Below are positions 5,300 to 32,500 of a DNA stretch of 64,000 nucleotides, one piece after another. The position numbers were made by a program, and so were the translations under genes. The stretch comes from Pirellula sp. (GTDB lineage Bacteria; Planctomycetota; Planctomycetia; Pirellulales; PNKZ01), in NCBI GenBank assembly GCA_013822735.1, contig PNKZ01000015.1, positions 79,065 through 143,064 on the forward strand. The letters run 5' to 3'. Each line of letters begins with the position of its first letter. Position 1 is the first letter of the stretch. The notes under the pieces were generated by a model. The model did not search any database. It was not told the origin of the DNA and saw only the letters and a program-made list of their open reading frames with translations.

Positions 5300-6286
5300 T
5301 CACCGTGCGGATGCGGGCGACGCCAACACGGCCTTTATTTTATCGAGCAACTCCGGCGATTCGACGTCCGGCGCTCCGATTCCCAGTAAGGCGAAGTTGT
5401 CCGCTACGATCTCTTCCGGATGGATAATGTAAGTGGTATTGCGCCCAATCTTCTCAAAGAAGTCGGGCGTGGCGGAGAGTGCCGTGAGCCGCGATTTGCC
5501 GGTCTTATCGGCAAGAGCTCGCAACGCGCCGGACTTCGCATCGCGCTCCACCAACAACAGCTTCAATTCCAAGTGCTGGAAAAACGGAGCTCCGTCACCG
5601 GCTTCGGCTTGCCCCCGCGTCGACAACAAAATCGGAATGCACCAAACCGGCTCCCCGTCGACTTTCAGCTGAATCGCGTGCTTGTGGTAAGGCGCATCGG
5701 GGTTCGTCAGCTTGCGTTCGGCAACATCCTCCGGCAACGCCAACTCCGGGAACCGCTCAAAACCGATCGTCGCGTAAAGGCGATCCCTTAGCTCCGGATT
5801 GTGCCGCGAGAGTACGTGAAACAATTCGTGCCAGATCAACTTCTCCACACCGGCATCGTCGGACTTCAACCGCCCTTGCGGCAAGACGACGGCGTCGTCG
5901 CGCGTATAAGCGGCACCGCTCTCTTCGTCGCCCGTCGTCTTGATCAGGAGGACGCGCTTCGGCAAAGCCTGAGCGTACTTCTTGCTGCGCTCTTGCATGC
6001 CGGTGAGAATCTTCGTGATGCGAGCCTGCTCTTCGTCGCTCCAAGGCAGCACGCTCAAGCGCGCCACGGCGACGTAGTCGTCAACGCTCATGTTTTTCGA
6101 CGTCCGCAGTCGAACGGCAAGGTCGAGCTTACTGAGCCGATCCAAGTAGACGTCGCGTTTGCTCAGCGCTGCTTTCCCTTCCTCGATGGTCGCGAAAACG
6201 ACATGCGTGTCGGTGCCCAGCATGACGTCGGCATGGGCAGGCGACGACAGGCACATTGCGGCAATGACGAGCAGAGCCGTACGCAT
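5300..6286 (-). CDS. Hypothetical secreted protein with HEXXH-like metallopeptidase motif
   Basis: Signal peptide MRTALLVIAAMCLSSPAHA; motif LIWHELFHVLSRH. Confidence 0.6.
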   Translation of the reverse strand: MRTALLVIAAMCLSSPAHADVMLGTDTHVVFATIEEGKAALSKRDVYLDRLSKLDLAVRLRTSKNMSVDDYVAVARLSVLPWSDEEQARITKILTGMQERSKKYAQALPKRVLLIKTTGDEESGAAYTRDDAVVLPQGRLKSDDAGVEKLIWHELFHVLSRHNPELRDRLYATIGFERFPELALPEDVAERKLTNPDAPYHKHAIQLKVDGEPVWCIPILLSTRGQAEAGDGAPFFQHLELKLLLVERDAKSGALRALADKTGKSRLTALSATPDFFEKIGRNTTYIIHPEEIVADNFALLGIGAPDVESPELLDKIKAVLASPASAR

Positions 6287-6360
6287 AATTTGCTTCCATC
6301 CATCTAGCGACACGTCGGCCTTACGGCTCGACGCTCGCCCAGTTCTCACAGCGATCGCGA

Positions 6361-9598: not shown

Positions 9599-11968
9599 CT
9601 AGTGCAGGTTGTCGCCTTCCGTCGGCGCGGCGGGGGGCGTGAGCTCCAGAAGCGGCGTGCCGACGCGCAGAGTTACCGGTGCGGCCGGCGGAGGCGAAGC
9701 CGGCGCCGTGGTGGGCGGCAGGGCAACGATCGCTTGTTCTGCCGCGGGCTCCAATTGAACAGACGGGGCCGGACCGGTGATGTGCTTCCATTCGCCGGAT
9801 ACGGCAGACGCGGCGACGGTGGGTCGCCCGACGCTTTTAGCCGGTTCGGGTACAGCCGACGGTTCGACGTTAGCGGCCTGTTGAACGTTTGCAACGGATT
9901 CTTCGTACTGCGCCGGTTGCACGACCGGCTTCGCGGCCGGAACTTCTTCCAATACCGGCAACAACATCGCCTGAGAACCGGTAACTTTTCGGCCCGGCGA
10001 CAGAATGTAGTTAATCGGCCCGACCTTGAGCAGCGATCGCGAGTTACGCGGCGCATCGAGATAGGCTTTCTCGGCCCAAGGCCCTTCGGCCATGTCGACG
10101 CCGTTGTACTGCAGAAGCGTCCCGGCTTCGAACTGCACGTTCTTCAGGGAGATTGCGTGTTCGACGCGAGCCCGATGGAAGCGAATGTCGGCATCGGCGG
10201 CCATGCGCTGCGCTTCGAGCAAGTAGTCGAGCGTCGCTTGATCGGCATCGAACGCGGCTTGGGTCGCCATCACTTGTTGAAATGCGGCCGTGCGTCTGTT
10301 GAGCGTCGTCTGGACGACGAACTGCGTTCGATCCACTTCGGCCGCGGCCGTGCTTAAGTCGTGGACGACTTGCCGTTCCATTTCATGCAGCAGCGCCCGC
10401 TCGCGCGAGAGCTGCCACTGCGCGCTCTTCACGGCGGCATGACCGCGACGGAACCCAAGCGGCACGTTGAGCTCGGCGCCCAGTTGCCATTCTTGGAATT
10501 TGCCGCCGAAGAGCGTGTCTAACGCCGAACCGAACGGAATCGGCGGTCCGCCGGCAAGATCGTCGCCGAAACCGCGCCACCGATAACGACCGATCGTATC
10601 GAGCTGCGGCAACAGGAAGTTGCGCGAGGCGACGAGCTCCAACTCGCGGCGTTTGACGATCCACCGTTGCCGACGCAGTTCGACGCGTCGCGCCAACGAC
10701 TCGGCCACGAGCGGCTGCCAATCGAATTTCACGGGTACGGTCGTCGGCTCGTCGAGCGGACGCAGGAGTTCGCCGTCGCCGATCGGAAGTCCGATCAGCA
10801 AGCGTAGTCGGCGTTCGCAAACCTGCACGCCGCCGTTGCCGCGAAACGTGCCGCCGCTGGAGCCGTTGTTCATGCGCGTACCGTCGAGCGGAGTGCCGGC
10901 CAGCGCGTTTTGCACTTCTTCTTCGAAGCGGAAGAACTGCTCGCGGGCCTGAGCTTCCTTTTCCGCCTCACCGCCCCGACGACCGGTGTCGTACAACGAG
11001 CGCACTTTACGCCAAGTTTCTAAGCCTGTGTTGCGAGCGACCAGCTTGGCGTCGAGATCGCGATAGGCGTAATAGAGATCCCAGTAAGCGTTTTCCGTTT
11101 CGCTGAGTAGCCCGCGCACGCCGGTTTCCAATTCGGCGAGGCTTACGTCGGTGTTCATCCGCGCGATGAGTACGCCGTTGTAAACGCCCGGCGTCGCCCC
11201 GGGCCCGGCAATGCGGTTGAAATCGACGCCTGCGCCCTGCAACAGCGGATGGCGGAATTCCGTTTCGATATTGGAGTTCCATGCGCTGGGAAAGAGATTG
11301 CCCGGCGCATTGTTCGCGTCGTAGTCGGTGAAGTTTCGCACGCTGAGTTGCGTTCCGTCGGCGGTGCGCTTCGTGAGCTGGTTCTGAAACACGTACGCAT
11401 CTTGTTGCAAAAGACGCGTGCCGCCGCCGAAGAATTGGTTGTTCAGCGCGCGATCGTTTTTCTCAAAGAACGCCGAGCTTGCAAACGACGTGTCGAACGC
11501 GCTCAAGGCCGCTTCCGGCCCGAAGCGCGGATCGGTTTCTTGAATTGCCGGGTTGTAAACCGAACTATACGCCTGCGGCGATCGCAACATCTGCCCGCCG
11601 AGATCTCGCAGTACTTTGGCATTGGCGAGCGCGATTCGCATGGCTTCTTCCAGCGACAGGTCGCGGAAGTTCATCGGCTCGACGCTCGCCAACGACAGCG
11701 GCGCCGGCGTGGAGAGCAAATCATCACTCGTCGGCGTACGGACATCCGCGTATTCGATGGTCGTCGCCGTCGCACGCCAACCCGCGTTATGGATTGACGA
11801 AAACCGGCTCTGGAGATTTTCGCGCGTATTGCAGCCGGGCAATAGGGCGACGATCGCCCCAATCACCACGATTCTGCGTCGTGCGTCTTGTTTCCAGTTC
11901 AAGATTCTCGTCCTTGGGCGCCCTGAATGAAAGCAGCGTCGGCGTTGGTCGACTTTTACGCATTTCAT
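9599..11968 (-). CDS. TolC-like outer membrane efflux family protein
   Basis: Long OEP-like helices (LLSETENAYWDLYYAYRDLDAKLVARNTGLETWRKVRSLYDTGRRGGEAEK...; SLKNVQFEAGTLLQYNGVDMAEG). Lipobox-like LLPGCN near the N terminus; start may be downstream of 11968. Confidence 0.8.
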   Translation of the reverse strand: MKCVKVDQRRRCFHSGRPRTRILNWKQDARRRIVVIGAIVALLPGCNTRENLQSRFSSIHNAGWRATATTIEYADVRTPTSDDLLSTPAPLSLASVEPMNFRDLSLEEAMRIALANAKVLRDLGGQMLRSPQAYSSVYNPAIQETDPRFGPEAALSAFDTSFASSAFFEKNDRALNNQFFGGGTRLLQQDAYVFQNQLTKRTADGTQLSVRNFTDYDANNAPGNLFPSAWNSNIETEFRHPLLQGAGVDFNRIAGPGATPGVYNGVLIARMNTDVSLAELETGVRGLLSETENAYWDLYYAYRDLDAKLVARNTGLETWRKVRSLYDTGRRGGEAEKEAQAREQFFRFEEEVQNALAGTPLDGTRMNNGSSGGTFRGNGGVQVCERRLRLLIGLPIGDGELLRPLDEPTTVPVKFDWQPLVAESLARRVELRRQRWIVKRRELELVASRNFLLPQLDTIGRYRWRGFGDDLAGGPPIPFGSALDTLFGGKFQEWQLGAELNVPLGFRRGHAAVKSAQWQLSRERALLHEMERQVVHDLSTAAAEVDRTQFVVQTTLNRRTAAFQQVMATQAAFDADQATLDYLLEAQRMAADADIRFHRARVEHAISLKNVQFEAGTLLQYNGVDMAEGPWAEKAYLDAPRNSRSLLKVGPINYILSPGRKVTGSQAMLLPVLEEVPAAKPVVQPAQYEESVANVQQAANVEPSAVPEPAKSVGRPTVAASAVSGEWKHITGPAPSVQLEPAAEQAIVALPPTTAPASPPPAAPVTLRVGTPLLELTPPAAPTEGDNLH

Positions 11969-12138
11969 GCGCTAGGGGATTCATCGGACCGCACGATCGA
12001 CATAAGCATTAATTTCGTCAAATTCAGAAAGGTCGACGCAAATTGCCAATGCCAGCTGCCGTTTTCCAGGGGCTTCACACTCATCGAACGCGCGAAAGCA
12101 TGCGGGAAGAAATGCCTGCGAGGATATACTGAGAGGCT

Positions 12139-14154
12139 ATGCTTCCTCCCCTCGAACACGCAGGCACCGCCGGCACCTGGGACGCTCTCGACCACCTCAT
12201 CGATGAGTTGGTGGTGTGGAGCCGTACATCTGCGGCGCCACAGACGTTCTATCGCGAAATGTTGCGACGCGTCATCGAGGCGCTCGCGGCCCGTGGCGCG
12301 TGCGTATGGGAAGCCGAGCCGAGCGGCGCTTTGCTTCGCGCGCACTTTACCGCCGATTCGCACGGGCCCCCCTCAGACGATCCGACGCGCTTTCAACGGT
12401 TCGCTCCGGCGGTCGATTGGGCGTTGTCGCATTGCGAGGCATTGGCGCTAGCGCCCGATGCGGAATCGGACGATCGTTCACTCCCGCCCAACTGCTCCGA
12501 CTCTTTACTTTTTGTCCAACCGTTCGTCGTCGACGACGCCCCGTTGGGAGTGATTCTTGTCGAGCAACGCCCCAACTTAGAGCCTGATGCGCGGCGCGGG
12601 GCACTGCGCCTCTTAGCGACCATTGCCGATCTCACGGCTGATTATCATCGCAATCGTCAGCGCGCTTTATTCCAACGACGCGCGGCGGAAGCCGGCGAGT
12701 TAGAAGCCCTGCTCACCGCTTTGCATGCGGAAATCGACGTTCGCGCAGTCGCCTACGCGGCGGCTCACGAAGGTCGCCGCTGGTGTAACGTGGATCGCGT
12801 CGCAGTACTTTCCCTGGAGCACAAGGCGGCCCGCCTGTTGGCCGTCGGCGGCGTGGAATCCGTCGATCGCCGCGCAGAAAGTGTCCGAAAACTCGAACAA
12901 CTCGCAACATTGGTCGCAGCGCAACGTCGCCCGTTGCGCTATCCAGATCAAGCGACGTCTCCCCCGGCGCCGCAAGTAGCACAAGCCCTGGCCGACTACG
13001 TCGAGGCCGCCGAGCCTCGATCGCTTGAAATCGCGATCCTGGAGCGCGCTTCGGAAGCAATCGAATCGCCGATCGGCTTGTTGGTCCTCGAGCAATTTGG
13101 CCCCGAAACGTCGGGCCTCTCCGACGACTCCTTGCTCGCCGAGCGACTGGAGACTCTCCGTCGCCATACCGGCGTCGCCCTCGCCAACGCGCTGGAAATC
13201 GAACGAATACCGTTGCAGCGCTTTTGGCGGGCACTATCCAACAACCGTAACGTCGTATCGCGCCGCCTCGGCAAGGCTGCCGCCGCCTGCGCCGCCGTCG
13301 CTTTGCTTTGCGGCGCCACTTTCCTCATCCCGGCCCGTCTTACGGTTGAAGCCGCCGGCAAATTGCAGCCCAGCGCACGGCGCGACATCTACGCCCCGCT
13401 CGACGGCATCGTCGAAGAGATCCTCGTCCGGCACGGCGATTTCGTCACGGCCGAGATGCCGCTCCTGAGCCTTCGCAAGCCGGAATTAGAACTCGAACAG
13501 GCGCGCGTGTTAGGCGAGTTGCAAACCGCTGAACGTCGTCTTTCGGCCTTGCGCGCGAATCGTACGTCGGGCACCGCTGCGGATGCCGTCGAGCGTCGCC
13601 GTCGCCAAGAACTTGCCGCGGAAGAAGAACAGCTCAAGCAAGCAATCGCCGGGTCTCAGGAGCAGCTTCGGCTTCTCACACTACAGCAATCGGAACTCAT
13701 CGTACGTTCTCCGATAGCCGGACGCGTAACGACCTGGGACCCCGAACGGTTGCTGGCAGGTCGTCCGGTTGCTCGGGGCGACGCACTTTTACACATTGCC
13801 GACGAATCCGGGCCTTGGACCTTGGAGCTTGACGTACCACAACAAGGGTACGACGACGTCGCCCGCGCGCTTCGCGGCGGTGCGGAACCGCCGGTCGTGG
13901 AGTTCGTCGTCGCCACACGGCCCGAGCAAACGCACATAGGCAAACTCGTTCGCCTAGCCGAAGCGGCTGAAACATCGGCTGACGAAGGTACGCGTTTGGC
14001 CGGCATCGCGGAGTTCCATCGCGCCGATGTAGCCGATGAAATCCGTCGCCCGGGCACATCTGTTTCTGCCAAGATCGATTGCGGTTCCAGTTCGCTCGGC
14101 AGCGTGTCGACGCGCGACCTTCTCTACTATCTGCGAACTCGGTGGTGGTTCTAA
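12139..14154 (+). CDS. GAF-domain protein fused through a TM helix to a HlyD-type periplasmic adaptor
   Basis: N-terminal about 370 aa with GAF-like segments; TM AAAACAAVALLCGATFLIPARL; then AAGKLQPSARRDIYAPLDGIVEEILVRHGDFVTAEMPLLSL (biotinyl-lipoyl) and SPIAGRVTTWDPERLLAGRPVARGDALLHIAD. Confidence 0.78.
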   Translation: MLPPLEHAGTAGTWDALDHLIDELVVWSRTSAAPQTFYREMLRRVIEALAARGACVWEAEPSGALLRAHFTADSHGPPSDDPTRFQRFAPAVDWALSHCEALALAPDAESDDRSLPPNCSDSLLFVQPFVVDDAPLGVILVEQRPNLEPDARRGALRLLATIADLTADYHRNRQRALFQRRAAEAGELEALLTALHAEIDVRAVAYAAAHEGRRWCNVDRVAVLSLEHKAARLLAVGGVESVDRRAESVRKLEQLATLVAAQRRPLRYPDQATSPPAPQVAQALADYVEAAEPRSLEIAILERASEAIESPIGLLVLEQFGPETSGLSDDSLLAERLETLRRHTGVALANALEIERIPLQRFWRALSNNRNVVSRRLGKAAAACAAVALLCGATFLIPARLTVEAAGKLQPSARRDIYAPLDGIVEEILVRHGDFVTAEMPLLSLRKPELELEQARVLGELQTAERRLSALRANRTSGTAADAVERRRRQELAAEEEQLKQAIAGSQEQLRLLTLQQSELIVRSPIAGRVTTWDPERLLAGRPVARGDALLHIADESGPWTLELDVPQQGYDDVARALRGGAEPPVVEFVVATRPEQTHIGKLVRLAEAAETSADEGTRLAGIAEFHRADVADEIRRPGTSVSAKIDCGSSSLGSVSTRDLLYYLRTRWWF

Positions 14155-14156
14155 CC

Positions 14157-15083
14157 ATGATTTCGCCTTCGACCCGCCGATTGTACCTGACGCTCTCGCC
14201 GGCCGTTTGGTCGTTATCGTTTCTCGCCGCGACTGCCGCCGCCGCCGAACCAGCTTCGCTTCATGTGCCTGACGCCGTCGTGACGCTCAGCGAACAAATC
14301 GAAGTCCCGGCACGCAGCGCGGGCGTGTTGGCGACAATGAACGTTCGCGAGGGGGACGTCGTCAAAGCAGGTCAAGTTGCGGGCGTCATGGACGATGCCG
14401 ACGCTCGTCTCGCCGTCGCCAAGGCCGAAACGGAAGCGGCAATCGCTCGCGCCGAAGCAGACAACAAACTGAAAGCGCTCGCCGCCGAAAAGGCCGCCGC
14501 CGCCGCCAAGGCAGAACTGCAGCGCGCCCTCGAGTCGGGCGAGAAATACGCCAAGAGCGTTTCGCAATCGGAGCTCGATCGCCTGCGCCTTCAGGCGGAT
14601 AAGGGCTCGCTCGAACATCAACAAGCCGAACACGAACGAAGTCAGGCACAACTCACGGCGCGCATCAAAGCGAATGAGTTGGATGCGGCACGTCGCAAGC
14701 TCGAACTACACCGCATCACGGCCCCCGCTTCCGGCATGGTGGTCGACGTGCGCAAACATGTCGGCGAATGGGTCGAGCCCGGCATGCCGGTGTTGCGCAT
14801 CGTGCGCATGGATCCGCTACGCGTCGAAGCGTTTGTTTCGGCGGCCGACGCCGTGGGGCTGCGTCCCGGCTGCGACGCTTCGTTTCAAATCGCCGCAGGC
14901 GGCGCGACGGATCGGGTCGCCGGCAAGCTCTCGTTTATCAGTCCCGAGATCGACCCGATTAACGGCCAAGTGCGCATTTGGGTCGATTTGCCCAATGCCG
15001 ACGGAACGCTTCGGCCTGGCCTGCAAGGAACGCTGGTGATCACTCCGGCCGGCAAGCTCGCTCCGGTCGACGGAGCGCGCTAA
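14157..15083 (+). CDS. HlyD-family periplasmic adaptor subunit
   Basis: Signal peptide; VPARSAGVLATMNVREGDVVKAGQVAGVMDD; coiled coil; ITAPASGMVVDVRKHVGEWVEPGMPVLRIV. Confidence 0.87.
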   Translation: MISPSTRRLYLTLSPAVWSLSFLAATAAAAEPASLHVPDAVVTLSEQIEVPARSAGVLATMNVREGDVVKAGQVAGVMDDADARLAVAKAETEAAIARAEADNKLKALAAEKAAAAAKAELQRALESGEKYAKSVSQSELDRLRLQADKGSLEHQQAEHERSQAQLTARIKANELDAARRKLELHRITAPASGMVVDVRKHVGEWVEPGMPVLRIVRMDPLRVEAFVSAADAVGLRPGCDASFQIAAGGATDRVAGKLSFISPEIDPINGQVRIWVDLPNADGTLRPGLQGTLVITPAGKLAPVDGAR

Positions 15084-17317
15084 TGGCGACGGTCGCGACG
15101 CCTTACTCTTTCGCATCGCAGCCGTGGCTCGCACGTCGCGCCGATTTGAAGATCCGCCCCGCGCCGACGGCGGCCGCCGCATGGCTCGTCGAAGACCCCG
15201 CCGCATCACGCTATTTCGAACTATCCGCCGACGAATACTTTTTGCTGCGGCAGTTCGACGGACGTTCCTCCCCCACGGACATTTGCACTCGCTACGAGCG
15301 CGCCTTCGCTCCCCGCCGCCTTGACGACGCTCAACTCGACGAGTTCGCGACGCGACTTTATCACCAAGGGTTGCTCGTTTCCACCGCGACCGGACAAGGC
15401 GAGGTACTGCGTCGCCGCGCTACGGAAACGGCTCGCACCGCGCGACGACGCGCGCTGCTCAACCCGCTCGCGATTCGCTTGCCGGGAGTCGACCCCGCGC
15501 CGATTCTGTCGCGCATTGCTCCCGCCTGCGACTGGATGTTTTCACGCACCTTCCTCCTGCTTGCGATGCTGCTCGCCGTCGCTGCCGTCGGCATCGCCGT
15601 TCTTCGTTCCGACTTGCTGCTCCGGGAATTGCGTGCGGCGACCGCCGCGTTTCATCCGAGCATGCTGCTCAGCTTGGCACTCGTCACTGCCGGCGCCAAA
15701 GTGATACACGAGCTCGCTCACGCCGTGGCCTGCCGTAAACTCGGCGGAAATTGCCGCGAAATCGGCGTGCTGCTGTTGGTGGGCGTGCCTTGCCTCTATT
15801 GCGACGTCACTTCCGTTTGGATGATTCCCGAGCGCTGGAAGCGGGCTGTCGTCGGCGCGGCGGGAATCTTCGCCGAGCTGTTCCTTGCGGCAGTCGCCAT
15901 CTTGCTGTGGAACGCGAGCGCACCCGGACTGTTTCACGACGTCTGTCTGCAACTGGTTGTGGTCTGTTCCGTGGCCACGGTGCTGTTTAACGGTAACCCG
16001 CTCTTGCGCTACGACGGTTATTTCATCCTCACAGACCTTGTCGGCACATCGAATTTAGGGGAGCGCTCCGAGACTGTGCTCGGGACGCTCCTGCGGCAGT
16101 GTTACTGTGGTGACTCGGAGAATGCTGAGATAGGACCGCTTCCGGCTCGCCCCTGGCTTTGGGCCGGCTATGCTTTCGCATCGATTATCTATCGCACGGC
16201 GCTTACCGTCTTGGTGTGGTGGTTCTTGCGCACGGCGCTACGCCCTCTCGGGCTCACCGTCGTGGCCGATGCCGTTTTGGCGCTATCGCTCGTCGGGATG
16301 GTCGTGATCCCGCTCCGACGAACGACCAGCGCTATACGACAAGGACTACTAAACGGACGCATCGATGGGAGGCGCCTCGGCGTGCGAAGCCTCGCGACCA
16401 GTTTGCTTTTGGCAGGCGCATTGCTTTGGCCCTGGCCGCACCGTGTCGCCGCTCCCGCCGTCGCGCACGTGCGAGAGGGGCGCCACCTTTTCATTGCGAC
16501 GCCCGGCAAGATTGTCTCCTCCAAGCAGTTGGGAGATGTCGTAGATGCCGGAGAATCGGTCGCAACACTTGTAAACCTGGATATCGAACGTGAGGCTTCT
16601 CAAGCGCGAAGCGAGGCGGCACAACGTCATGCGGCGGTCGACCACCTTGAGAGCCGACGTGTCGATGACCCTGCTGCAGGTGACGAACTTCCCGCAGCTC
16701 GGCAAGCAGCCGCGGCGGCCGACGACCGTGTGCGTCTGAGTCAGAAGGAACTCGCCCGTTTGGTGATTCGGTCACCCGTCGCGGGAACCGTGCTCCCCTT
16801 ACCCCAAGCGCTGGCGAATCTAGGCGAGGACCCGCAACGCAACTCGGCGAACGAACTCGACTCGTCGCCACTCGCACCGCGCAATCACGGTCGATACCTG
16901 GCGGCGGGGACGCCCCTTTGCACGGTGGGCGATGCCCAAAAACGTGAGGCCGTCCTCGTCGTCGACGAGCGCGACGTTGAATTCGTGCAGACGGATGCCG
17001 ACGTCCGTTGTCAGTTCGACGCAACCGGCACGCGGATCTGGCACGGCCGGGTTATCGAATCTACGGCCATGCGCGACACGAACATTCCGCCGGAAGTTGC
17101 CGCCGCCGGACACTTGGCGTTGGAAGCCGCGCCCGGCGGCTCGCGTCGGCCCACGGCAGAGTATTTTTTGGTACGTGTCGCAATTGAAGATGATGCCGGC
17201 CTGATCCCGATCGGAGCAGTGGGGCAAGCGCGGATTGATGCCGGCGGACAATCGCTCGCAGCCCGCGGAATGCGATTTCTCAGCGAAACGTTCCGAATGC
17301 AGTCTCCGGCCCGTTGA
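15083..17317 (+). CDS. PqqD-like N-terminal domain + M50 (site-2 protease-like) membrane peptidase + HlyD-like C-terminal domain
   Basis: TAATG overlap with the previous stop. YFELSADEYFLLRQFDG...; HELAH (about 15707-15721); LLRYDGYFILTDLVG; C-terminal LVIRSPVAGTVLPL. Confidence 0.83.
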   Translation: MATVATPYSFASQPWLARRADLKIRPAPTAAAAWLVEDPAASRYFELSADEYFLLRQFDGRSSPTDICTRYERAFAPRRLDDAQLDEFATRLYHQGLLVSTATGQGEVLRRRATETARTARRRALLNPLAIRLPGVDPAPILSRIAPACDWMFSRTFLLLAMLLAVAAVGIAVLRSDLLLRELRAATAAFHPSMLLSLALVTAGAKVIHELAHAVACRKLGGNCREIGVLLLVGVPCLYCDVTSVWMIPERWKRAVVGAAGIFAELFLAAVAILLWNASAPGLFHDVCLQLVVVCSVATVLFNGNPLLRYDGYFILTDLVGTSNLGERSETVLGTLLRQCYCGDSENAEIGPLPARPWLWAGYAFASIIYRTALTVLVWWFLRTALRPLGLTVVADAVLALSLVGMVVIPLRRTTSAIRQGLLNGRIDGRRLGVRSLATSLLLAGALLWPWPHRVAAPAVAHVREGRHLFIATPGKIVSSKQLGDVVDAGESVATLVNLDIEREASQARSEAAQRHAAVDHLESRRVDDPAAGDELPAARQAAAAADDRVRLSQKELARLVIRSPVAGTVLPLPQALANLGEDPQRNSANELDSSPLAPRNHGRYLAAGTPLCTVGDAQKREAVLVVDERDVEFVQTDADVRCQFDATGTRIWHGRVIESTAMRDTNIPPEVAAAGHLALEAAPGGSRRPTAEYFLVRVAIEDDAGLIPIGAVGQARIDAGGQSLAARGMRFLSETFRMQSPAR

Positions 17318-17348
17318 TCGAGCAACATCCACGTGGCGGCGGTTCGCG

Positions 17349-17960
17349 TTAGTAGCGAGGGCAACGCGTGCCGCTGCTGCCCGGGCGACCGTATCCCAAC
17401 GAGTAGACGCACTCACGCGGCGGGTGAACCAACATCTTCGCGGGCAACAGCGCCGTATCGGCGGCAAACTGTACGCCCGAGGCAATCGGCTGCATCAACC
17501 CGAAGTTGGCGCCGTAGCGTTCCACGTAGCGTTGTTCGAAATAGAGCGGGCGATGCACCATATTAGATGCTTGCCAGAAGTACATGGAGTCGGCATAGCC
17601 GCGTTGCACTTCGCGCCCTCCGACCGTTTCGGGGGGCGCGGAAGCAGGCGCGGCAACATTAGCGGGAACTTCTCCCGACAACCGAATGTTGACGGAGATA
17701 TCCCGTAGCGGCTTCACAGCCGGCGCGTTGGGGTCGGACTGCGGCGCCGGTATGCTGTCGACTGCAACTTCCTGTTGCGGGACGACTTCAATCGTAGGAG
17801 CCGGCGACGCCAATCTGTTCGAATTTTGGGGATCGGCCGCCATCGCGGCTCCCAACCAAATCATGGCGGCACATTGCGTCGCGACAGCCGCCCAGCGTCC
17901 CATCGCAAAACCGCGACGTCGCAAGACCGTGCTCCCGGCGAATCGGCTTGTAGCGTTCAT
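17349..17960 (-). CDS. Hypothetical exported protein, convergent to the adaptor cluster
   Basis: Signal-like MNATSRFAGSTVLRRRGFAMGRWAAVATQCAAMIWLGAAMA; conserved-looking C terminus PLYFEQRYVERYGANFG...PPRECVYSLGYGRPG. Confidence 0.6.
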   Translation of the reverse strand: MNATSRFAGSTVLRRRGFAMGRWAAVATQCAAMIWLGAAMAADPQNSNRLASPAPTIEVVPQQEVAVDSIPAPQSDPNAPAVKPLRDISVNIRLSGEVPANVAAPASAPPETVGGREVQRGYADSMYFWQASNMVHRPLYFEQRYVERYGANFGLMQPIASGVQFAADTALLPAKMLVHPPRECVYSLGYGRPGSSGTRCPRY

Positions 17961-18420
17961 TCGGGCAATCCTACGTTTAGCGATGACACCGGTTCGACGC
18001 GAGATAACGGTTGCTAGGGCAAGGTATCGTCGCCGCATAATCGTTGCGTCGAACAAACGTGCGATCGAGCGTAAGACCGATACGACGGCTTTAGACGGCA
18101 CAATCGGTACAACGCGAACGTGTTGCACGAAAACGCCGTGTTTTGCGTCGTGATGCCGGCAAATCCCGGGGTAATTGCAGGGGTATTCTGCACCTCACGT
18201 CGAATTCCGGCCCTTTGTTGCGCCCGACAATCGCCAAAGATTGACACCCCCGCAAAGGCTGGAAACAATGGAAACTCACGGGCGGCGCAGCGTCCGGCCC
18301 CTGCGTTCTGCAAAGGCGCGGGGCGGTAACGGAGAGAGTTTCGATCCCCCCTTCCCCGGCTTGGTGAAACAGGGCTAGTTTCGCCGGGCTGTAGCGCGCA
18401 AGCGCTTACGCGACGCCACT

Positions 18421-21400
18421 ATGCGCCAAACTCTCGTTACTTGGCTCTCCGGGTTGATCCGGCCTACGCCCTCTCGCGCCGCGCGAAGGCGTCGCCGAAG
18501 CTTAACGCCGAGCCTGCAAATTCGTCGACTCGAAGAGCGACGGGTTCTGAGCGTCGACGTCGTCGATGGTCAATCACTAACCATCGCGGAGAACAGCAAA
18601 GCCGACACGGTCGTTGGCACCGTCGCGGCGGCAAATGACCCGCCCGCCGAACCGCTGACGTATTCCATCACCGCGGGTAATGACTCCAACGCATTTTTGA
18701 TCAATCCCGTGTCGGGGGAGATTCGCGTCGCCGACGGTTCGCTTCTCGATTTCGAAACGCATCCGACCTGGGAACTCACGGTTGAAGCGCACGCGAACGG
18801 CGATCCGACGCAGCGCGATTCGTCGGTCGTTACGATTTCACTGACGGATGTCTCCGGTCCGGCGACTGCGAATTTTACCGGCAACGCGACTCTGGGCGCC
18901 TCGGGGAATCAGCTCACGCTCACATCCGGCGGCGCGACGCTTTGGACCGCAGGCCGCGAGGACGTAACCTCGCTCACGATTCTCGGCTCATCGGCCGCCG
19001 ATCATCTCGTCATCGATTTCACCGGCGGCAATCCCATTCCTGCCGGCGGCATTCACTACGACGGCCTCGACCAGCCCGGCGGTACCGTTGATTCGCTGGA
19101 ACTCGTGGGGACCTTCGACCACGCGGACTATCGTTACGACGACGGCCACAACGGCGGGATCGTCGTCACACAAGGAGTCGCCACCGGAGCGATTGAATAT
19201 CGCAACCTGGAACCGCTGGTAAATACCGGTTCGGCCGCGAACATCGTCTTTACGCTCGGCGCGGCGGCGGACCACGTCGTGCTGGAAGAGGTTACGCCCG
19301 GCACGTTGCGGCTGCGCAGCACCGACGCCGTGCCGACGTTCGAAACCACCACGTTCACCGCGCCGACGACTTCGCTCACGCTGCGCACCGGCGACGGCAA
19401 CGACACGATTACCGTGTCGCCGTTGACGGGCTCGTTTAGTCTGACGATCGACGGTGAAGGGGACTCGAATACGCTCATCGTCGATCAGGCCGACGCCGCC
19501 GTCGCGGCCCCGACATTCACGTTCGCAGGCTTCGAATTTTTGCAAACCGCGTCGCCCGACCATGCCGAGGCGCTCAGCGGCGCACTAGACGGCGGCCGCG
19601 GCGTGGTCGTCACTTCTCCCACCGGCTCGCTGCTTAGTATTACCGGCTTTCCAGAGTCCACCGCCGGTTTCGATCCGGCGCTATCACTCGGTCGCTTGCT
19701 CAATCCGGCGATTGTTGCCGGTACGCTCGGGGTCAATCTCCCGTCGTCAAATGTCGGTACCGCTGTTCGTAGCGGCGTCGTCGTCTCTTGGACCGGGGGC
19801 CAAACGCTGAGCGACCAAGCCGGCGACGACTTCGTGATCTACGAATCGTCGTCGAGTACCGACGGACCGGACGCAGCCATGGTGCAAGTGCACATCGCCG
19901 GCGCAGGCGGCGGCTGGACGAAGTGGCGTTACGAGACCGCCGACTCGCGCGCCCCCTACGGCGGCGTAGGAACGGCCGGCGCCTTCGCCACGGCGTTTGA
20001 TCTTGCCGACTTCGGCCTCACCGCCGGTCAGTCGATCGACCAAATACGTTACGTAAACATGACCGCCGCCGATCGCATGGAAGGCCCCGGCTATGAACGT
20101 GTCACCGGCGACGGCGTGTTGGTCGCGTCCGGCTTCGTCATTCCCGACGACAACGGCCTGACGAGCAACGTACTGCCGGATCCCGGCTCGTTCGCGTCGT
20201 TTGCCTACTTCGGCAACGCGACCTTCGATCCCGACCCGTTGTATTTCGGCGCGCTGCATCCCCTGGCGACGTCGGGAAATTCGCACAACTCCGATGTCAT
20301 CGCAGTTACGACGTCGACGATTTCGACGACGCGCAACGGCACCGCCGCACCGCTGATCAACTACTCGTCGATCTCGGAACTCGACGTCAATACGCGCGGC
20401 GGAGTCGACTCCGTCACGATCGACGTTGCCGCAGGTCTTCCCGCAACCATTCGCGTCGACGGCGGCAGTCCCACTTCGCAAGACTCGCTGATGGTGCGAG
20501 GCACGACCGGCGCGCAAAGCTTCGCTCTTTCGGGCGACGCAATCACCACTTCCGCAACGACGATCCGCGTTGCCGGAATCGAGTCGACGACCATCGACAT
20601 TTCCATGGCGGGTTCCGGCGACACGGTTGCCGTCGATCGATCGTTCGCCCTTTCCGGAAATGCGCCGAAGCTGCAAATTGTCGGCGGCGGCACGACGGAC
20701 AACGACCAACTGTCCGTCGATACGGAGTACCCGACGTCGTCGCCTGCCGCAGCCCAGAACTTTACGTTCGGCGGCGTGAAGTTCAATCAATCGTCGACGC
20801 CCAACCAGCTTTCCGAACTCGGCATCGGCACGCTCGATGGCGGCTACGGCGCCGTGATCACGACGCGACCGCTTAACTCCGGTTCGACGCCCACCTTCGT
20901 TCCATCGCCCGACGTCGTCACCGACGTGTTCAATCCGTCGCTCTCGTTGGGAGCATTGTGGGATCACGCAAGCGCCACGACTCCGCGCTACGTGAGCCTT
21001 CCCGACGGCTCGAATAACGGCACCGGCGCGCGCGGCGGCATTGCCATTAGCTGGGACAAGGGGCGCTCTCTTACAAACGTCGCCGGCGCCGACTTCGTGA
21101 TCTACGAGTCGGGAGACGCCGGGGCCGACGCCTTCATGGTGCAAGTGCACGACGCCGATACAGGCGTTTGGAGCCAGTGGGTTTATCATAAGGCGTCCGC
21201 GCCGACCGCCGGCGTGTACGCGACCTCGTTTGATCTCGCGGCCGATTTCGGCGTCGCCGGATCAGTCGACGCCATTCGCATCGCCAACCTCACGGCGGCC
21301 GATCGAGTCGTGAACGCATCGGGCGAGGGGACCGTAGTTGTCGGCGGCGGACCAGGAACTTTTGCGCCGCTCGATTCGACGAACACTCCGTTTGGCGCCG

Positions 21401-24400
21401 GCGGTTTTGATCCCGACTTGCTGTATTTCGGCGTGGTACCGTCTCTCGGTAACGTCACGTCGCGCAACGACGTCGTGAACGTCGATGCCAACTCCGTCGA
21501 CGTCGACGGCTTCATGGCGGTCAACTACGCCGGTCTCAAGGGCCTCACCGTCGACACCGGCGGCGGCGCCGATTCCATTCGGGCCACGCCGAGCACCGAT
21601 ACCGCGTACACCATTCAAGGCGACACGCCGGGCATTAGCGTCAATCCCGGCGATCGACTGGTGCTGGACTTATCGGGCGTCACCGCGCCGGTTTTCACCT
21701 CGACGGGAATCGGTGCCGGAACGCTGGCTTCAGGAAACCGCGCCGGCATCTCCGTAACCGGCATCGATTCCCTCGGCGCGACGGCGCAGATGAACGTCGT
21801 CGTTTCCGAAGCTGCGAATTCCGTCGCCGGTAACACAGATGCTTTCAACGTCAGTCGCAACGGCGCGAGCGATGAAATCTCCGTCAACGGGCAACTAGTT
21901 CTGCGCGTCGATCGAGAGGCCGTTGCCAACCTTCGCGTATCGGGCTCCGACGCGGCCGACGATCAGCTCACTATCGACTACTCGGGCGGCACTCCTGTTC
22001 CCGCCGGAAACATCACGTTTGCCGCAGGCTCCGGCGGTACCGACTTGCTCCGCACCACCGGCGGCACGGTGACTACCGTAACCCAGACCTACGCGAACTT
22101 GACCGACGGCAACACGGCGATCGACGCCGACCTCGTCAACTACACAGGGCTGGAGAGCATCACCGACGATCTCACTGCCACGAACCGCAACTTCGTCTAT
22201 CTCGCAACAAACAACGCGATCAACCTTGGCGACGATGTCTCCGCCGCAGGTAGATCGCAGATCGTCGGCGACCACGGAGCGACGACGCGCTTCCAAAACC
22301 CGACCTCCGCGCTCTCGCTCGACGCCGGCCCCGGCGACGATGTCATCACGCTGGCTCGGCTCGATACGGCATTCTCGGCCTCGGTAACCATTCGCGGCGG
22401 TGCCGGCAACGACGACATCGCGCTCGATGACAACGGTCGCGCGACCGTCGGCGGTACTGTCGACTGGATCAAGTTTCCGCTCGCAATCGACGGCGGCGGC
22501 CAGGACGAAGACCGCCTAACGATCGACGATACCGGCTCGACGCGCGATAAGACCTATAGCGTGAGCAACGTGCAAATCGGCGGTGCGGGCGTTCCCGCCG
22601 GGGCGGCCGTTGCGGTGCCGGGGGTCGTTCCGAACGTTAACGGCACCATCGACGGCACGGAGTGGGACCAGGTCCCCGTCGCCTTCGATTCCGGAGCCCG
22701 CCCGGCGTCCGGTTCGCAGTCGATTCTTCACTTCAACTTCGCCGCCAACGGCGGCAACACCACGGCCGACAGCACCGGCAATAACAATACGGGAGTGCTC
22801 GTCGAACCGCCCGGTCCGCAGTTTAGGGTCAGCCAAGGCAGGTTCGGCGGCGCGCTCGATTTCGACGGTGTCGACGACTTCGCCTGGTTCCAAGATGCGG
22901 CATTCGACGTCGGCGCGCGCGGCACCTTGAGTTTTTGGGTGCAGATGGACAACGTGAGCGGGCGAAACCAATTCTTTGAAGGGCCCGGCAATGCGGGGCT
23001 TGAGTTCCAGTATCGGCCCGACACGGGCGGACAGTTCTACGGACGTACGACCGACATCGGCGGCGACGCCGTTATTCGGGCCGGAGGCGATGCTTCGGCG
23101 CTGGGTATTTGGACGAACATCCAATACGTCTGGGATTTCTCCGGGCTCCCGGGCGACACGACGGCAAAGATGCGGATTTACGTGAACGGCGTCGAGTCGG
23201 CCTATCGCGCCGGCACTACACCGACCGATCTGACTTGGGCCGCCGTAGTCAACACCGTCAACGGCATGATGAACGTCGGACGTGACCCCGGCGATGCCGC
23301 GCGCATGTTCGACGGCCGCATGGACGACGTCGCCTGGTTCAATAGCGTGCTGACTGCCGCCGAGCGCAACGCGATTCGCACTGTCGGCGTCGAAGTCGCG
23401 CAGGCCGACACGGCCGGCGCCAATGCCTCCGGTCGACTGAATGCGACGGCCGTGGCCGGCGGCAAACTCGTTGCCTATTGGAATCTCGACGACGCGCCCG
23501 GCACGACCAACGTCGCCGGCGACGGCGGCACCTCGATCGTGCTTCATACGACTCCGCCGCTCGCGCAGTTCGTGGCGGGCGGCAAGTTCGGCGGCGCTCT
23601 CGATTTCGATGGCCTCGACAGCTACGCCACGTTCCAAGACCCGACGTTCAACGTCGGTGAGCGAGGAACGCTCAGCTTCTGGGTCCAGATGGACAATGTC
23701 GGCCGGCGCAATCAGTTCTTCGAAGGGCCGGGCAATTCCGGAATGGAGTTTCAGTATCGCAACTCCGGCAACGGCCAGTTTTACGGCCGTACTCAAGACA
23801 ACGGCGACTTCGTCATCCGCTCCGGCCCCGACAACGGCGTAGCCGGCGTTTGGACGAACATCCAATACGTCTGGGATTTCTCCGGACTTCCCGGCGATAC
23901 CTCGGCGAAGATGCGGATTTACGTCAACGGAGTTGAGTCTTCCTATCTTTCAAACGCTAATCCGGCGAACTCTTTCACGCCGCAAGACCTCAACTGGACC
24001 GCAATCACCAACACGGTCAACGGCGTCATGAACGTCGGCCGTGACCCCGGCGATGTGACGCGCGCTTTCGACGGGCGCATGGACGATATTGCCTGGTTCA
24101 ACACTGTGCTGACCGCGGCCGAGCGGAATGCCATTCGCGCGGTTGGCGTAGAAGCTGCGCAAGGCGATACGGCCGGCGCCAATGCTTCCGGCAGGCTCAA
24201 TGCCACGGCGGTCGCGGGTGGGAATCTCATCGCCTACTGGAACCTAAACGACGCTCCCGGCACGAAGATCGTGCCCGGCGACGGCGGCACGAGCATCGTC
24301 CTGAAGATCGGCCCTCAAACCGAAGGCGCCGAATTCATCGCCGCCGGCGGCCCGACGCTTCCTTCCGGCGGCGCACCGCTCAACGCCGTGTACTTCGACG

Positions 24401-27400
24401 GCAATAAAGACTTTATTCGCACTTCCGACTCTGCGAGCCTCGACTTCAACAAGTCGCAAGGCTCCATTTCGTTCTGGGTTCGGCCCGATCAGCTTACGGT
24501 CGACAACAGTGCGGCCAACGGCTACATCGCCTTGGCGGAAGATTCAAGCCAGCAAATCTTCGTCGGCATCTCGCGACAGCAAGACGCGGGCGCGGCCTTC
24601 GGCAACGCCGATTTCTTCGGTCGGATCGTCTTCTCGCCGTTTGAAAATACGCCGGCCTCGAACCAGAACATCGTCGTCAGCAATACCCGCCTCACCGTCG
24701 GGCAGTGGACGCAAGTCACCGTCACGTGGGATTACGCCACGCTTTCGGCGTCGATCTACATCAACGGCGCACTCGATTCGACGGTCGTCAACAAAACTTC
24801 AAATCCCGCGATCTGGACGCAAGCCGCCGGCAATACGGGCGACTGGCTCTTCGGCGCCGACGGCAAAACCCAAGGCCATGGGCTGCTCGGCGCGATGGCG
24901 GATATCGCCGTTTACGGCAACACGCTCCGCGCAAGCGAAGTGCAAAGCCTCTACCAAACCGGCGCCACGGATTCCGGCTCGTTCGATCTGGCGGGCGCCC
25001 GCGGCCGCTTCAGTTGGGACGCCAACTATGTTTACGGGCTCATCGAGTCGTATCCCGCAGGCCCCGGCACGGCCAACGGCCCCTTCGACAATCTCGAACT
25101 CGATCTCTACATCAACAACGGTGCAACCCTCGCCGCGAGGCTTGATGCTTCAGTTTTAGTGCCGGTGAACAACATCGCGGGCTCGACGGTCGCTCCATCC
25201 GGCTCCGACGTACAACTTTACGAATTCCGTATCCCGATTTCCGCGATCAATGACGGCGTAAAGGCATTCGATCCGGCGTCGGGAGACTTCCTCCGTTATC
25301 ACCTGCGAACCATCGACGGCGAAGTTGCCGGCAGCGGCTTCGACACGCGCGACACGACGCTCGGCTGGATCGTCGAGCCGCCGATCACCTCGGATAATTT
25401 GCGACGCATGGACTTTGCGAAGAGCGAAAATTTCTTCGGGGTCGGCGGTCGGCTCAACTACACGAATTTCGCCCATCTCACGCTTAATGCGGGCTCCGGC
25501 ATTGACGCGCTCACCGTCGTCGACTCGCAGATCGCGCCGGCGGCGACAAACCCGACGCGCACGTTCACGCTGAATACCGGCGGCGGGGCCGACGTCGTCA
25601 CGATCGATTCCGTCGACTCCGCCTTCCGCGCGGCCGTATCGATCGACGGCGAAGCGGGCACAGACGTCGTCACGATCAACGCGCCGCTCGCGCTCGGCAG
25701 CGCACTTTCGACCGGCAATCTGACCGTGACGGCCGAGACCATCGCCATGAACGCCGCCGTTGACACGACCGCCGGCACCGTCGGCAATGTCACCTTTCAC
25801 GTCGGCGGCACGCTCACGATCGCAGATACGGCGAACATCACCGCGGGCGGCGACGTTCTCATCGACGGCACCGGCGCAACCTCGACCGCCGGCGATATCA
25901 CCACGTTCGGCGATAAGATCACGGTCGCCACGCCTGCGACGCTGACCGGCGACGTCACACTGACGACCAGCAACGGTAACGTGCTCTTCAGCGGCGCCTC
26001 CCCGTCGGTAAAAGGCGACTACCTCCTTACGATCGATGCCGGCAACGGTGACGTTACTTTCAACGGCGCCGTCGGCGTTCACGCCGCGCCGACACACTTG
26101 AGCGGCATCGACGTCACCGCCGGAAGCTTGTGGTTCAAGTCGACCGTCGACGTCGACGACCAAGGAATCGATATCGACGTGACCGGCACGGTTCGCTTCG
26201 ATGGCGCGGTGACCACGACCGCGGGCGGCACAATGACCGTCACCAACGGCGGTATTCTCACGATCAACGACGCCGCCAATCTCGACCTCGACGGCGCCTT
26301 CACGCAAGACGGCGTCGGTGCCACGGACCTGTTCGCGAACATCACGACCACGAACGATAACATCGCCTTCCACGCACCCCTACGGTTGCAAGACGACGTC
26401 ACGTTTACGACCGCCGGCGGCGACGTTGGCTTCCAAGGTGCGACGGCGACGATCAACGGCACTCACCAGTTGAACGTTAACGCCTTCGGCGGCGACGTTT
26501 TGTTCGACGGCGCGATCGGCGCCGTCGCCGGCGGAACGCGCGTCGGCGGAATTCTCATCACGTCGTCCGGCAATGTGGACTTCGCCGCCCCGGCGTCGCT
26601 TGCATCCGGCGGCCTCGACATCACCGCCTCCGGCGCCGTGAACTTCAACGCCGCCGTCGACACGACCTCCGGCGGCACTGCGACGATCAAGAACGGCGGT
26701 CTCCTCACGATCGTCGACGCCGCCGACTTCACGCTCGATGGCGCTTTCGCCCAAACCGGCGTCGGCCAAACCTCGCTCGCCGGCGACATCTCGACGACCA
26801 ACGACGCCGTCTCCTTCAACGCCGGCGTTACGATCGCGACCAATGCCGCGGGCGCCGTCGTCATCGACACCGGAACCACCGGCGGCAACGTCACGTTTAA
26901 TTCCACGCTCGACTCTACGACCGCAGGCATCGAAGACTTGCGTCTGAATGCCATCGGACACGATGTCGTTTTTAACGGCCTTGTCGGCGGTGTGAAGGCG
27001 CTCGGCGAGATCACCATCGACGCCGCCCGTAACCTGAGCATCAACACGGGCCTCACCGCCGTTTCGCTAGCTAATGCCGCCGGCACGGGACAAACGTCGT
27101 TCTCCGGCGCCACGCACTTCACGCAAGACACGTCAGGCACGGCCCTCACGCTCAACACGCCGACGATCGTCAGCACCGCTTCGGTTACCTCCGACGGCGG
27201 CACGTTCTTCATCACCACAGACAACTTGAGCATTGGCGCGGCATTCAGCGTCACGAGCGACGGCGAGATTAACGTCGTCGAACGTACGGCAGGCCGCGAC
27301 CTGGAACTCGGCGGTAACACGGCCGGCCGCCTGGCGCTTGATGCCGCGGAACTGGCGTTCATCACGGCCAAGACGCTCCGCATCGGCGACAATCTCGCCG

Positions 27401-29568: not shown

Positions 29569-32500
29569 ATGATCCTCTGTCCCGCTTGCAACCAAACTTC
29601 GACCGTCGCCGATCAAGCGACAGGCCGCTGCGCGCATTGCGGGGCCGCTCTACCCGTCGAAAAGCCCGGTACCGTGGCCGACGTGCGGATTGATCAAACG
29701 TGCGAGTTCGACTCCATCGACCCGGCTGTTGCCGCCGAGGCTCCTTTAGAACCCAAGTCCGGCACCGTTCACGAGGTCCACGGTCTGCAGACCGCCGAAT
29801 TCGACGCGGTATTTCTCGACGATGCCCCGAAATCGCCGCCGGTCGCGGCGCCGTCCGAAGCGCCGAGTGAACCGAAGTCCGGCACCGTGCACGAGGTACA
29901 CGGTTTGCAGACGGCCGAATTCGACGCCGTGTTTCTCGACGACGCCCCTTCGTCGCCACCATCCGCCGCCAAGACCGATGCGCCGCCGGAATCGAAACCC
30001 GGCACCGTGCATGACGTGCACGGATTGCAAACCGCTGAGTTCGGAACGCTCTTCGGAGAAGAAGGGGCCGACAGCTCGGCGTCGTCGAGCGGCACGCCGG
30101 CATCGTTACCTCCGCTGCCGCCTAAGCCCCCGTCGGTCGTCGGCCGCCGTACGGTCGACAACGCGAACATTGCACAGACTTACGATTCCGACGAAATCGG
30201 CTCGAGCCTCGTCGAACAACTTTCCATGGCCTGGGGCGGCGAGATCGAAGACGGGCCGAGCCCGCACGTCACGATCAAAGGAAAAGAAGTCACTCGCACG
30301 CGCAGCGATCAAACGCTCGTCATCAATTCCCGCGCCGTGCGCGATTCCGCCAAACCGCTGGCGCCCAATACGAAAACGCCGGCGACCTTGGCCGACTATG
30401 AGCTGTTGAGCCTGCTCGGCGAAGGAGGCATGGGCGTCGTCTACACGGCTCGCCAAGCCTCGATCGACCGGACCGTCGCGGTGAAGATGCTCAAGCCGGG
30501 GCACTCCAAAAACCGCGACCTGCAACAGAAGTTTCTCGCGGAAGCGGTCGTCACGGGCGATCTCGACCATCCGAACATCGTACCGATGTACGATCTCGGC
30601 AAGAACGAATCGGGCGACCTGTTCTATGCGATGAAGCGCGTGCAAGGCACCCCTTGGAACAAGGCGATTGCCGCCAAGTCGCAGTCGGAGAACGTCGAAA
30701 TTCTGCTAAAGGCGGCGGATGCCGTGGCCTTCGCGCACTCGCGCGGCGTGATCCACCGGGATCTGAAGCCGGAAAACATCATGCTAGGCGAGTTCGGCGA
30801 AGTGCTCGTTATGGATTGGGGACTCGCCTATTCGACTGCGGCATTCCGTAAGTCGGCAAGCATCACGCAGTCGTCGAGCATGGGAGGCAGCCCCGCCTAC
30901 ATGGCTCCGGAAATGGCGACCGGCCCTATCGATCGCGTGACCTTTTCGAGCGACATCTACCTCCTCGGCGCGATTCTCTACGAGATCCTTACCGGACGCC
31001 CGCCGCATTCCGGCGGTAACGTGACGAAATGCCTCATGGCGGCGGCGCGGAACGACATCGTGCCGACCGACAAAACCGGCGAGTTGGTCGATGTGGCTCG
31101 CCGCGCCATGGCCACGCATCCGATCGACCGCTATCGCACCGTCGCCGCGTTCCAGGCGGCGATTCGCGAGTGTCTCGCGCATTCCGAAAGCTTATCGCTC
31201 GCGCATCGCGCCGAACAAGAACTCGCCAAAGCCCGCGACATCGGCGACTATCAGAACTACTCGCGCGCGCTGTTCGGGTACGAAGAAGCCTACGCGCTTT
31301 GGAACGAGAACGAACGCGCCCAAATCGGCATTCGCACCGCCCGACTCGCCTATGCTTCGGCGGCGTACGAGAAGGGAGACTTCGAACTCGCCGCCGGCTT
31401 GCTCGACCGCACCCTTCCCGAACATGTGGCCCTCGGCGACCAAATTCGCAAAGGCCAGGAAGAGCGCGAAGCCCGCAAAGTACGCTTGCGCCGGGCTAAG
31501 CGATTCGTCGCCGGTCTCGCTGCCGCGGTGTTCGTCATCGCGGGCGTCGCCTATTTCGGCATTCGAGCACAGCGCGACCGCGCACGCGACGCCGAGCATC
31601 AAGCCCTCGTCGAGGCGGAAAATGCTCGCATCGCCGAAGGACGCGCGGTCGTCGAAGCGGCAAATGCGCGCACCGCCGAGGGTAAAGCCGTCGTCGAAGC
31701 TGAAAATGCGCGTAAGGCGGAGAGCCGCGCCGTCGTAGAAGCTGAAAATGCTCGTAAAGCCGAAAGCCGCGCGGTCGTCGAAGCTGAAAATGCTCGCACC
31801 GCCGAAGGCAAGGCCAACGTCGCCCGCGACGAAGCGGTAAAATCGAAAGCCGCCGAAGAGTACGCGGCTTACGGCGCTCGCATCGGGCTGGCGGCGGCCC
31901 GTATTGAAGAGAACGCTTTTGCCAGCGCAGCGGAGCTTCTCGAAACCTGCCCGCCGGAGCTGCGCGACTGGGAATGGGGACGGCTCAAGTATCTCTGCGA
32001 TCGCAGCAAACTTACGGTCAAGACTAACGCACCTCTTAACGGGGTCGCCGTCGATCCGCAAAAGAACCGCGCAGCCGTCGGCGGCTGGAACGGCACGCTC
32101 CGCACCGTTGCTCTGAACGACGGCAAGCTCTCCGCTCCGTTACCCTACACCGGTATGATCAACGCCGTTGCGTTCGGTCCACAAGGCGGAGTCCTGGCCG
32201 TCGGAGGCGCCGATCCCAAGGCGTTCGTTGCCATCTATGGTGATGCCGACGGTGACGGTGCAAAATCACGCGTATTTGCCGGCCATACAAAGCCGGTTCT
32301 CTCGCTCTCGTTCAACCGCGCCGGAGATCGCCTCGTCACCGGCTCGGCCGACGGCACGGCCCGGCTCTGGGATGTGGCTGCAGGCGCTGAACTGCGACTC
32401 CTCCGCGGTCACGCCTCGGGCGTGGAATCGGTCGCCTTCTCGCCTGACGAGCAAACGATCGTCACTGCGGGGGCCGACGGCACCGCCATCGTTTGGCCGC

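Follow-up and report, generated by a model that had tools for sequence, protein, structure and literature searches.

A locus on contig C15, part of a planctomycete genome of 6.9 Mb, raises the question of how proteins thousands of residues long are exported in planctomycetes and many proteobacteria. The stretch analyzed, termed here the window, spans 64,000 nucleotides. An earlier note on this DNA had described a TolC-like gene and three genes with HlyD-type adaptor segments, the last of them fused to a PqqD-like domain and an M50 protease, as an export locus without an ABC ATPase, with a neighboring giant protein as its candidate substrate.

Gene content and gene order

9599..11968, minus strand: TolC/OEP-like outer-membrane factor, 789 aa, with a lipoprotein-like N terminus (Pfam OEP, 2.2e-15)
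12139..14154, plus strand: GAF-HlyD, a cytosolic GAF region, one strong transmembrane segment (residues 380-398, placed after the GAF region by hydropathy) and a periplasmic adaptor (Pfam GAF 8.7e-6, HlyD_3 7e-11)
14157..15083, plus strand: HlyD/RND-type periplasmic adaptor, 308 aa, with an ordinary signal peptide at its sequence start (Pfam HlyD_3 7e-22, HlyD_D23 4e-20)
15083..17317, plus strand: RRE(PqqD-like)-M50-HlyD fusion, 744 aa, with several transmembrane segments by hydropathy (Pfam M50 9e-6, HlyD_3 5e-5; predicted structure at pLDDT 91.4, with adaptor fold matches)
17349..18128, minus strand: conserved exported protein, start uncertain, motif HRPLYFEE..LERYG (homologs at the same place, aligned)
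18421..29550, plus strand: giant protein, 3709 aa, with cadherin and laminin-G-like domains, candidate substrate (Pfam; giants likewise placed in sister loci)

The four exporter genes named in the earlier note were recovered where it had placed them, by Pfam and, for the PqqD-like domain, through homologs. GAF-HlyD, HlyD and M50-HlyD are tightly spaced, with a 2-base gap followed by a 1-base overlap, a close packing that looks as in an operon. The giant gene, said to adjoin the exporter genes, is indeed nearby, but it starts at 18421, beyond the range given for the locus, and the minus-strand gene at 17349-18128, which had been overlooked, fills the gap between M50-HlyD and the giant. This intervening gene recurs at the equivalent position in 11 of 16 related loci and has one further copy elsewhere in the genome. 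The window's gene order is found again in L034, L035, L041, L044, L048, L099, L101 and others, and a TolC homolog takes the same divergent place in those named as well as in L042 and L161. Because the identical order recurs in this way, the organization of the locus is, judged by gene arrangement, beyond chance. Directly after the giant, at 29569-34812 on the plus strand, the window encodes a 1747-residue protein kinase with WD40 repeats, and kinase-like genes are likewise seen near some other module loci. A 349-residue protein at 5300-6349, minus strand, has a weak eCIS_core match (E 0.001, below the cut-off).

No ABC ATPase, RND pump or SecA was found in the window, either by Pfam in the main genes or when reference ABC, RND and SecA proteins were run against all six frames with phmmer, a scan whose only hits were the two adaptors; for the ABC ATPase and the RND pump, this agrees with what had been noted before. 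TolC and adaptors can function with pumps encoded elsewhere, which lends some plausibility to an alternative we consider quite improbable, namely that they serve a distant ABC or RND pump, the giant being either a substrate of type I secretion or of another route, or simply a bystander. One rare exception, at L165:3542-8319 (G018), fits that alternative, with an RND pump and its adaptor directly adjoining M50-HlyD on the same strand. A dedicated ABC exporter or RND pump as the usual neighbor, which the earlier note had held would refute its proposal, was rejected in a survey of about 160 neighborhoods, where an RND pump occurred in 4 and ABC genes in about 10, scattered; these counts speak against a pump encoded elsewhere, as does the presence of the RRE-M50-HlyD fusion, which has no role in such pumps. 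Gene set and neighborhoods together support an ABC-less export locus of TolC/HlyD type.

Such ABC-less type-I-like machinery is in itself not new, because Kamneva, Poudel and Ward (2015; PMC4452313) described a module of GAF-HlyD, M50-HlyD and HlyD, sometimes with OEP, that has a second SecA and no ABC transporter and occurs in Planctomycetes and Proteobacteria. They proposed SecA as the ATPase and M50 as the pore, and termed the biological role completely unknown; our literature search found no later paper on the module. The earlier note, whose interpretation is partly supported, had overlooked this description. The window shares with the 2015 SecA_DEAD/type-I-related module the joint presence of GAF-HlyD, M50-HlyD and HlyD and the lack of an ABC gene, but its clade differs in that no secondary SecA is linked to the module and the genome has no extra copy to match it; typical of the clade are a TolC gene in divergent orientation and, downstream, a giant that carries a leader motif. 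Neither a substrate nor the PqqD-like domain figures in the 2015 description. The new content is the SecA-free clade, the leader motif, a pairing of giant and module that crosses phyla, and the RiPP-type fold of the PqqD-like domain alongside an invariant M50 active site.

With classical type I secretion (HlyB-HlyD-TolC), the window has in common a TolC-like channel, HlyD-type adaptors and a large surface protein next door. It differs in lacking an ABC transporter and any RTX family in the giant (by Pfam), in a shared signal that is N-terminal rather than C-terminal, and in possessing an M50 protease and a leader-binding domain. From an RND tripartite pump it differs by the absence of the RND inner-membrane pump.

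The leader motif and the substrate link

18529..18552, plus strand: leader motif LEERRVLS, residues 37-44 of the giant, after a basic stretch; common to 13/13 window-clade giants

Wherever a giant lies directly downstream of a window-clade module on the same strand (13 of 13 cases, the window's included), it opens with a basic stretch and then LExRxVL. When the LEERRVLS of the window giant was aligned with 34 other sequences, extra conservation appeared just beyond the search pattern, L at -5 and E at -2, and most rows, again including the window giant, lacked a hydrophobic core of the Sec signal-peptide type. Among 830 long ORFs near modules, motif counts were 21 and 6 in the first two 80-aa bins and 0-2 in later bins. 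Matches in L039 and L153, on short or unrelated ORFs, were set aside as probably due to chance.

The motif is that of NCBIfam LEPR-8K/LEPR-XLL (NF012209). Sister giants and other proteins of the same genome match this model, whereas the window giant, with its LExRxLL-like motif, gives no match at the cut-off of the LEPR model, whose 24 positions miss variants such as this one. Across 214 Planctomycetota genomes, LEPR-8K matches occur in 31, and 30 of these 31 encode M50-HlyD, a protein found in 65 of the 214 overall (p=2e-17; family-stratified p=1e-4); G087 is the single LEPR-8K genome without it. Conversely, 35 of the 65 module-bearing genomes have no LEPR-8K match, a figure to be read with the variants missed by the 24-position model in mind. 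At most module loci, a LEPR-like gene is missing from the surrounding 9-10 kb; 6 of 109 LEPR-8K matches fall no more than 15 kb from M50-HlyD, against 1.1 expected. LEPR giants of the window's own genome are also found on contigs C26 and C1, away from the window, which suggests that substrates can be encoded in trans as well.

The shared leader and the motif-module association bear out the earlier choice of the giant as the likely substrate, and on sequence grounds the link between module and giants appears strong. The association, together with the missing RTX family, also counts against a pump encoded elsewhere, although a Vibrio giant with an N-terminal LEPR-XLL and a C-terminal RTX region (PMC10868602) is a point in favor of one; because the two are joined in that protein, type I secretion may, in some hosts, be the route taken by LEPR proteins. 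In the literature on LEPR-XLL and DUF4347 we found no paper linking either to this machine. LEPR-XLL, an annotated motif with no assigned machine in the papers found, is now linked to a single conserved machine that includes a predicted leader-reading domain.

The RRE-M50-HlyD fusion

15134..15409, plus strand: PqqD-like leader-binding (RRE) domain (TIGR03859 in 48/63 homologs; top Foldseek matches TbiB1, TfuB1)
15707..15721, plus strand: HELAH, the M50 zinc site (HExxH); H, E and H invariant in 170/170 homologs
16010..16021, plus strand: YDGY, the third zinc ligand motif of the M50 site; D invariant in 170/170 homologs

Taken singly, the window M50-HlyD protein does not reach the Pfam PqqD model; of 63 homologs, 24 match it, twice as many matching the NCBIfam PqqD model. 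A structure search with the full-length protein gave adaptor folds only; a second prediction and search were therefore made for the N-terminal domain on its own. The best PDB fold matches of that predicted domain (pLDDT 81.5) are the RiPP leader-binding domains TbiB1 and TfuB1, at a fold-level best E of 3e-3; both were solved with bound leader peptides. This fold evidence favors the earlier view of the PqqD-like domain as a peptide binder. The C-terminal part matches, in structure, an adaptor of the MacA/AcrA/EmrA kind.

The earlier note had also suggested that the M50-adaptor fusion replaces the ATPase, a claim that finds no support. Because the protein lacks a nucleotide-binding domain and its protease residues do not vary among the homologs (one locus set was chosen by patterns that include M50 motifs, while 80 HMM-selected loci are free of such patterns), M50-HlyD was rejected as an energy source; its sequence is compatible with a role as selector or protease at the inner membrane. 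The RRE-type fold, the invariant M50 residues and the adaptor part suggest a gate, connected to a TolC conduit, that reads the leader and possibly cleaves it.

RiPP systems that pair PqqD/RRE with M50 (daptide, YydH/LiaK types) have in common with the window protein the leader-binding fold and an intramembrane M50 protease with its active site. They differ from the window, where these parts are fused to a periplasmic adaptor and partnered by a giant, and where no maturation enzyme was found among the genes scanned with Pfam (short ORFs were covered non-exhaustively). The closest NCBIfam model to M50-HlyD, that of the daptide intramembrane metalloprotease (5e-45, far below the cut-off), and the ability of RRE domains to bind RiPP leaders would both suit a protein that matures and exports a small RiPP-like peptide, with the giant unrelated. 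The absence of maturation enzymes from the scanned genes, and the recurrence across phyla of giants with a common leader beside the module, make this highly improbable.

Motors, and the module in Proteobacteria

C30:33497-35440: secondary SecA, adjoining an M50-HlyD module
C13:55916-57802: secondary SecA, adjoining an M50-HlyD module
C29:41910-43892: secondary SecA, unlinked to any module

The window's own genome (G000) has four M50-HlyD genes and four SecA_DEAD genes, one housekeeping and the three secondary copies above, each of about 630-660 aa. The C30 copy, the one scanned for it, is nearly without the SecA wing/scaffold domain, and the C29 copy has a small neighbor resembling the DUF3467-type protein of other loci. 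A second SecA is found in 51 of the 65 module-bearing genomes as opposed to 4 of the 149 others. The M50-HlyD tree places the window in a clade that often has a divergent TolC and seldom a SecA; in its sister clade, linkage to SecA is common. A regression over the 65 genomes assigns 0.89 extra SecA copies to each sister-clade module and 0.03 to each window-clade module; it is crude, the clades being cut by hand and the genomes related. Three near-complete genomes (G018, G164 and G184) have only window-clade modules and no extra SecA, and in the window's own genome three sister-clade modules match three extra SecAs. For these reasons the window module appears to have no dedicated motor. In G022, counted as a single-SecA genome in the survey, a very divergent SecA-like protein (L206:10830-12806; 59 bits to the secondary SecA) adjoins M50-HlyD.

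The same machine might borrow a motor encoded elsewhere, the unlinked C29 copy being shared among modules. One of the three secondary SecAs does lie away from any module, and unlinked secondary SecAs were already seen by Kamneva et al. (PMC4452313), but the three sister-clade modules suffice for all three copies, and the regression and the three genomes that have the clade and no extra SecA point the same way. We regard a borrowed motor as unlikely.

Accessory Sec (SecA2) export of large Gram-positive adhesins offers a partial parallel to the sister modules, whose extra SecA likewise adjoins large surface proteins; here, however, the secondary SecA nearly lacks the wing/scaffold domain and an outer-membrane conduit is present, and the window module has no extra SecA at all.

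We think it rather probable that the locus serves specifically to export giant surface proteins, by a route built from leader, RRE-M50-HlyD, adaptors and TolC. The footing for this, read directly from sequence comparison, is the gene set, its conserved order, the LExRxVL leader that adjacent giants share, the RRE-type fold, the intact M50 site and the lack of a dedicated ATPase gene. The RRE domain would bind the basic LExRxVL leader on the cytosolic side, and housekeeping SecA/SecYEG would push the giant across the inner membrane, a task for which sister modules would use their own secondary SecA. Inside the membrane, the M50 protease may cut off the leader. Together with TolC, the three HlyD-type adaptors would form the conduit across periplasm and outer membrane; the GAF region of GAF-HlyD probably senses or gates.

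The 214 surveyed genomes are all Planctomycetota, and Proteobacteria were sampled through plasmid records. In these records the giant and module are paired in Alpha-, Beta- and Gammaproteobacteria:

Thalassospira plasmid: annotated LEPR-XLL giant, DUF3467, HlyD, M50-HlyD, adaptor, TolC
Burkholderia anthina plasmid: DUF4347 giant, leader LEPRVVYD
Cupriavidus metallidurans plasmid: giant leader LEPRLLYD
Tistrella plasmid: giant leader LEPRMMFD
Azospirillum lipoferum plasmid: giant leader LEPRFMFD
E. coli/Citrobacter plasmids: giant with LESRQLFD and DUF4347, TolC, adaptor, HlyD, M50-HlyD

Loci of Caballeronia, Rhizobium and Phyllobacterium have no readable or recognizable leader. Of 5426 complete E. 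coli genomes, 24 carry the module, most often on a plasmid. E. coli has a single SecA, and the gene tables of PLSDB, which are incomplete, list neither an ABC exporter nor a SecA on the one E. coli plasmid examined; the E. coli version, if functional, therefore works without an extra SecA.

A broader proposal, to which we give slightly less than an even chance, is that these loci represent a distinct diderm secretion pathway, in which an N-terminal LExRxLL leader would be read by a RiPP-type leader-binding domain fused to a membrane protease and periplasmic adaptor, with exit through TolC and no ABC transporter, driven by a second SecA in some lineages and by the housekeeping motor in others, the E. 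coli plasmid versions included. The SecA/HlyD/M50 module of 2015 thereby gains a possible function, and versions of it that appear to have no dedicated motor come into view. The link between motif and machine makes the export of such proteins testable in tractable bacteria, for example Cupriavidus metallidurans CH34.

A small DUF3467 protein (e.g. L225:9648-9944) is a frequent neighbor of SecA-linked Planctomycetota modules and is found at the Thalassospira locus. On plasmids of E. coli, Citrobacter and Hafnia (L224/L230; NZ_CP081687.1 44829-64580), a giant DUF4347/cadherin-like protein accompanies TolC, adaptor, HlyD and M50-HlyD, with no ABC exporter.
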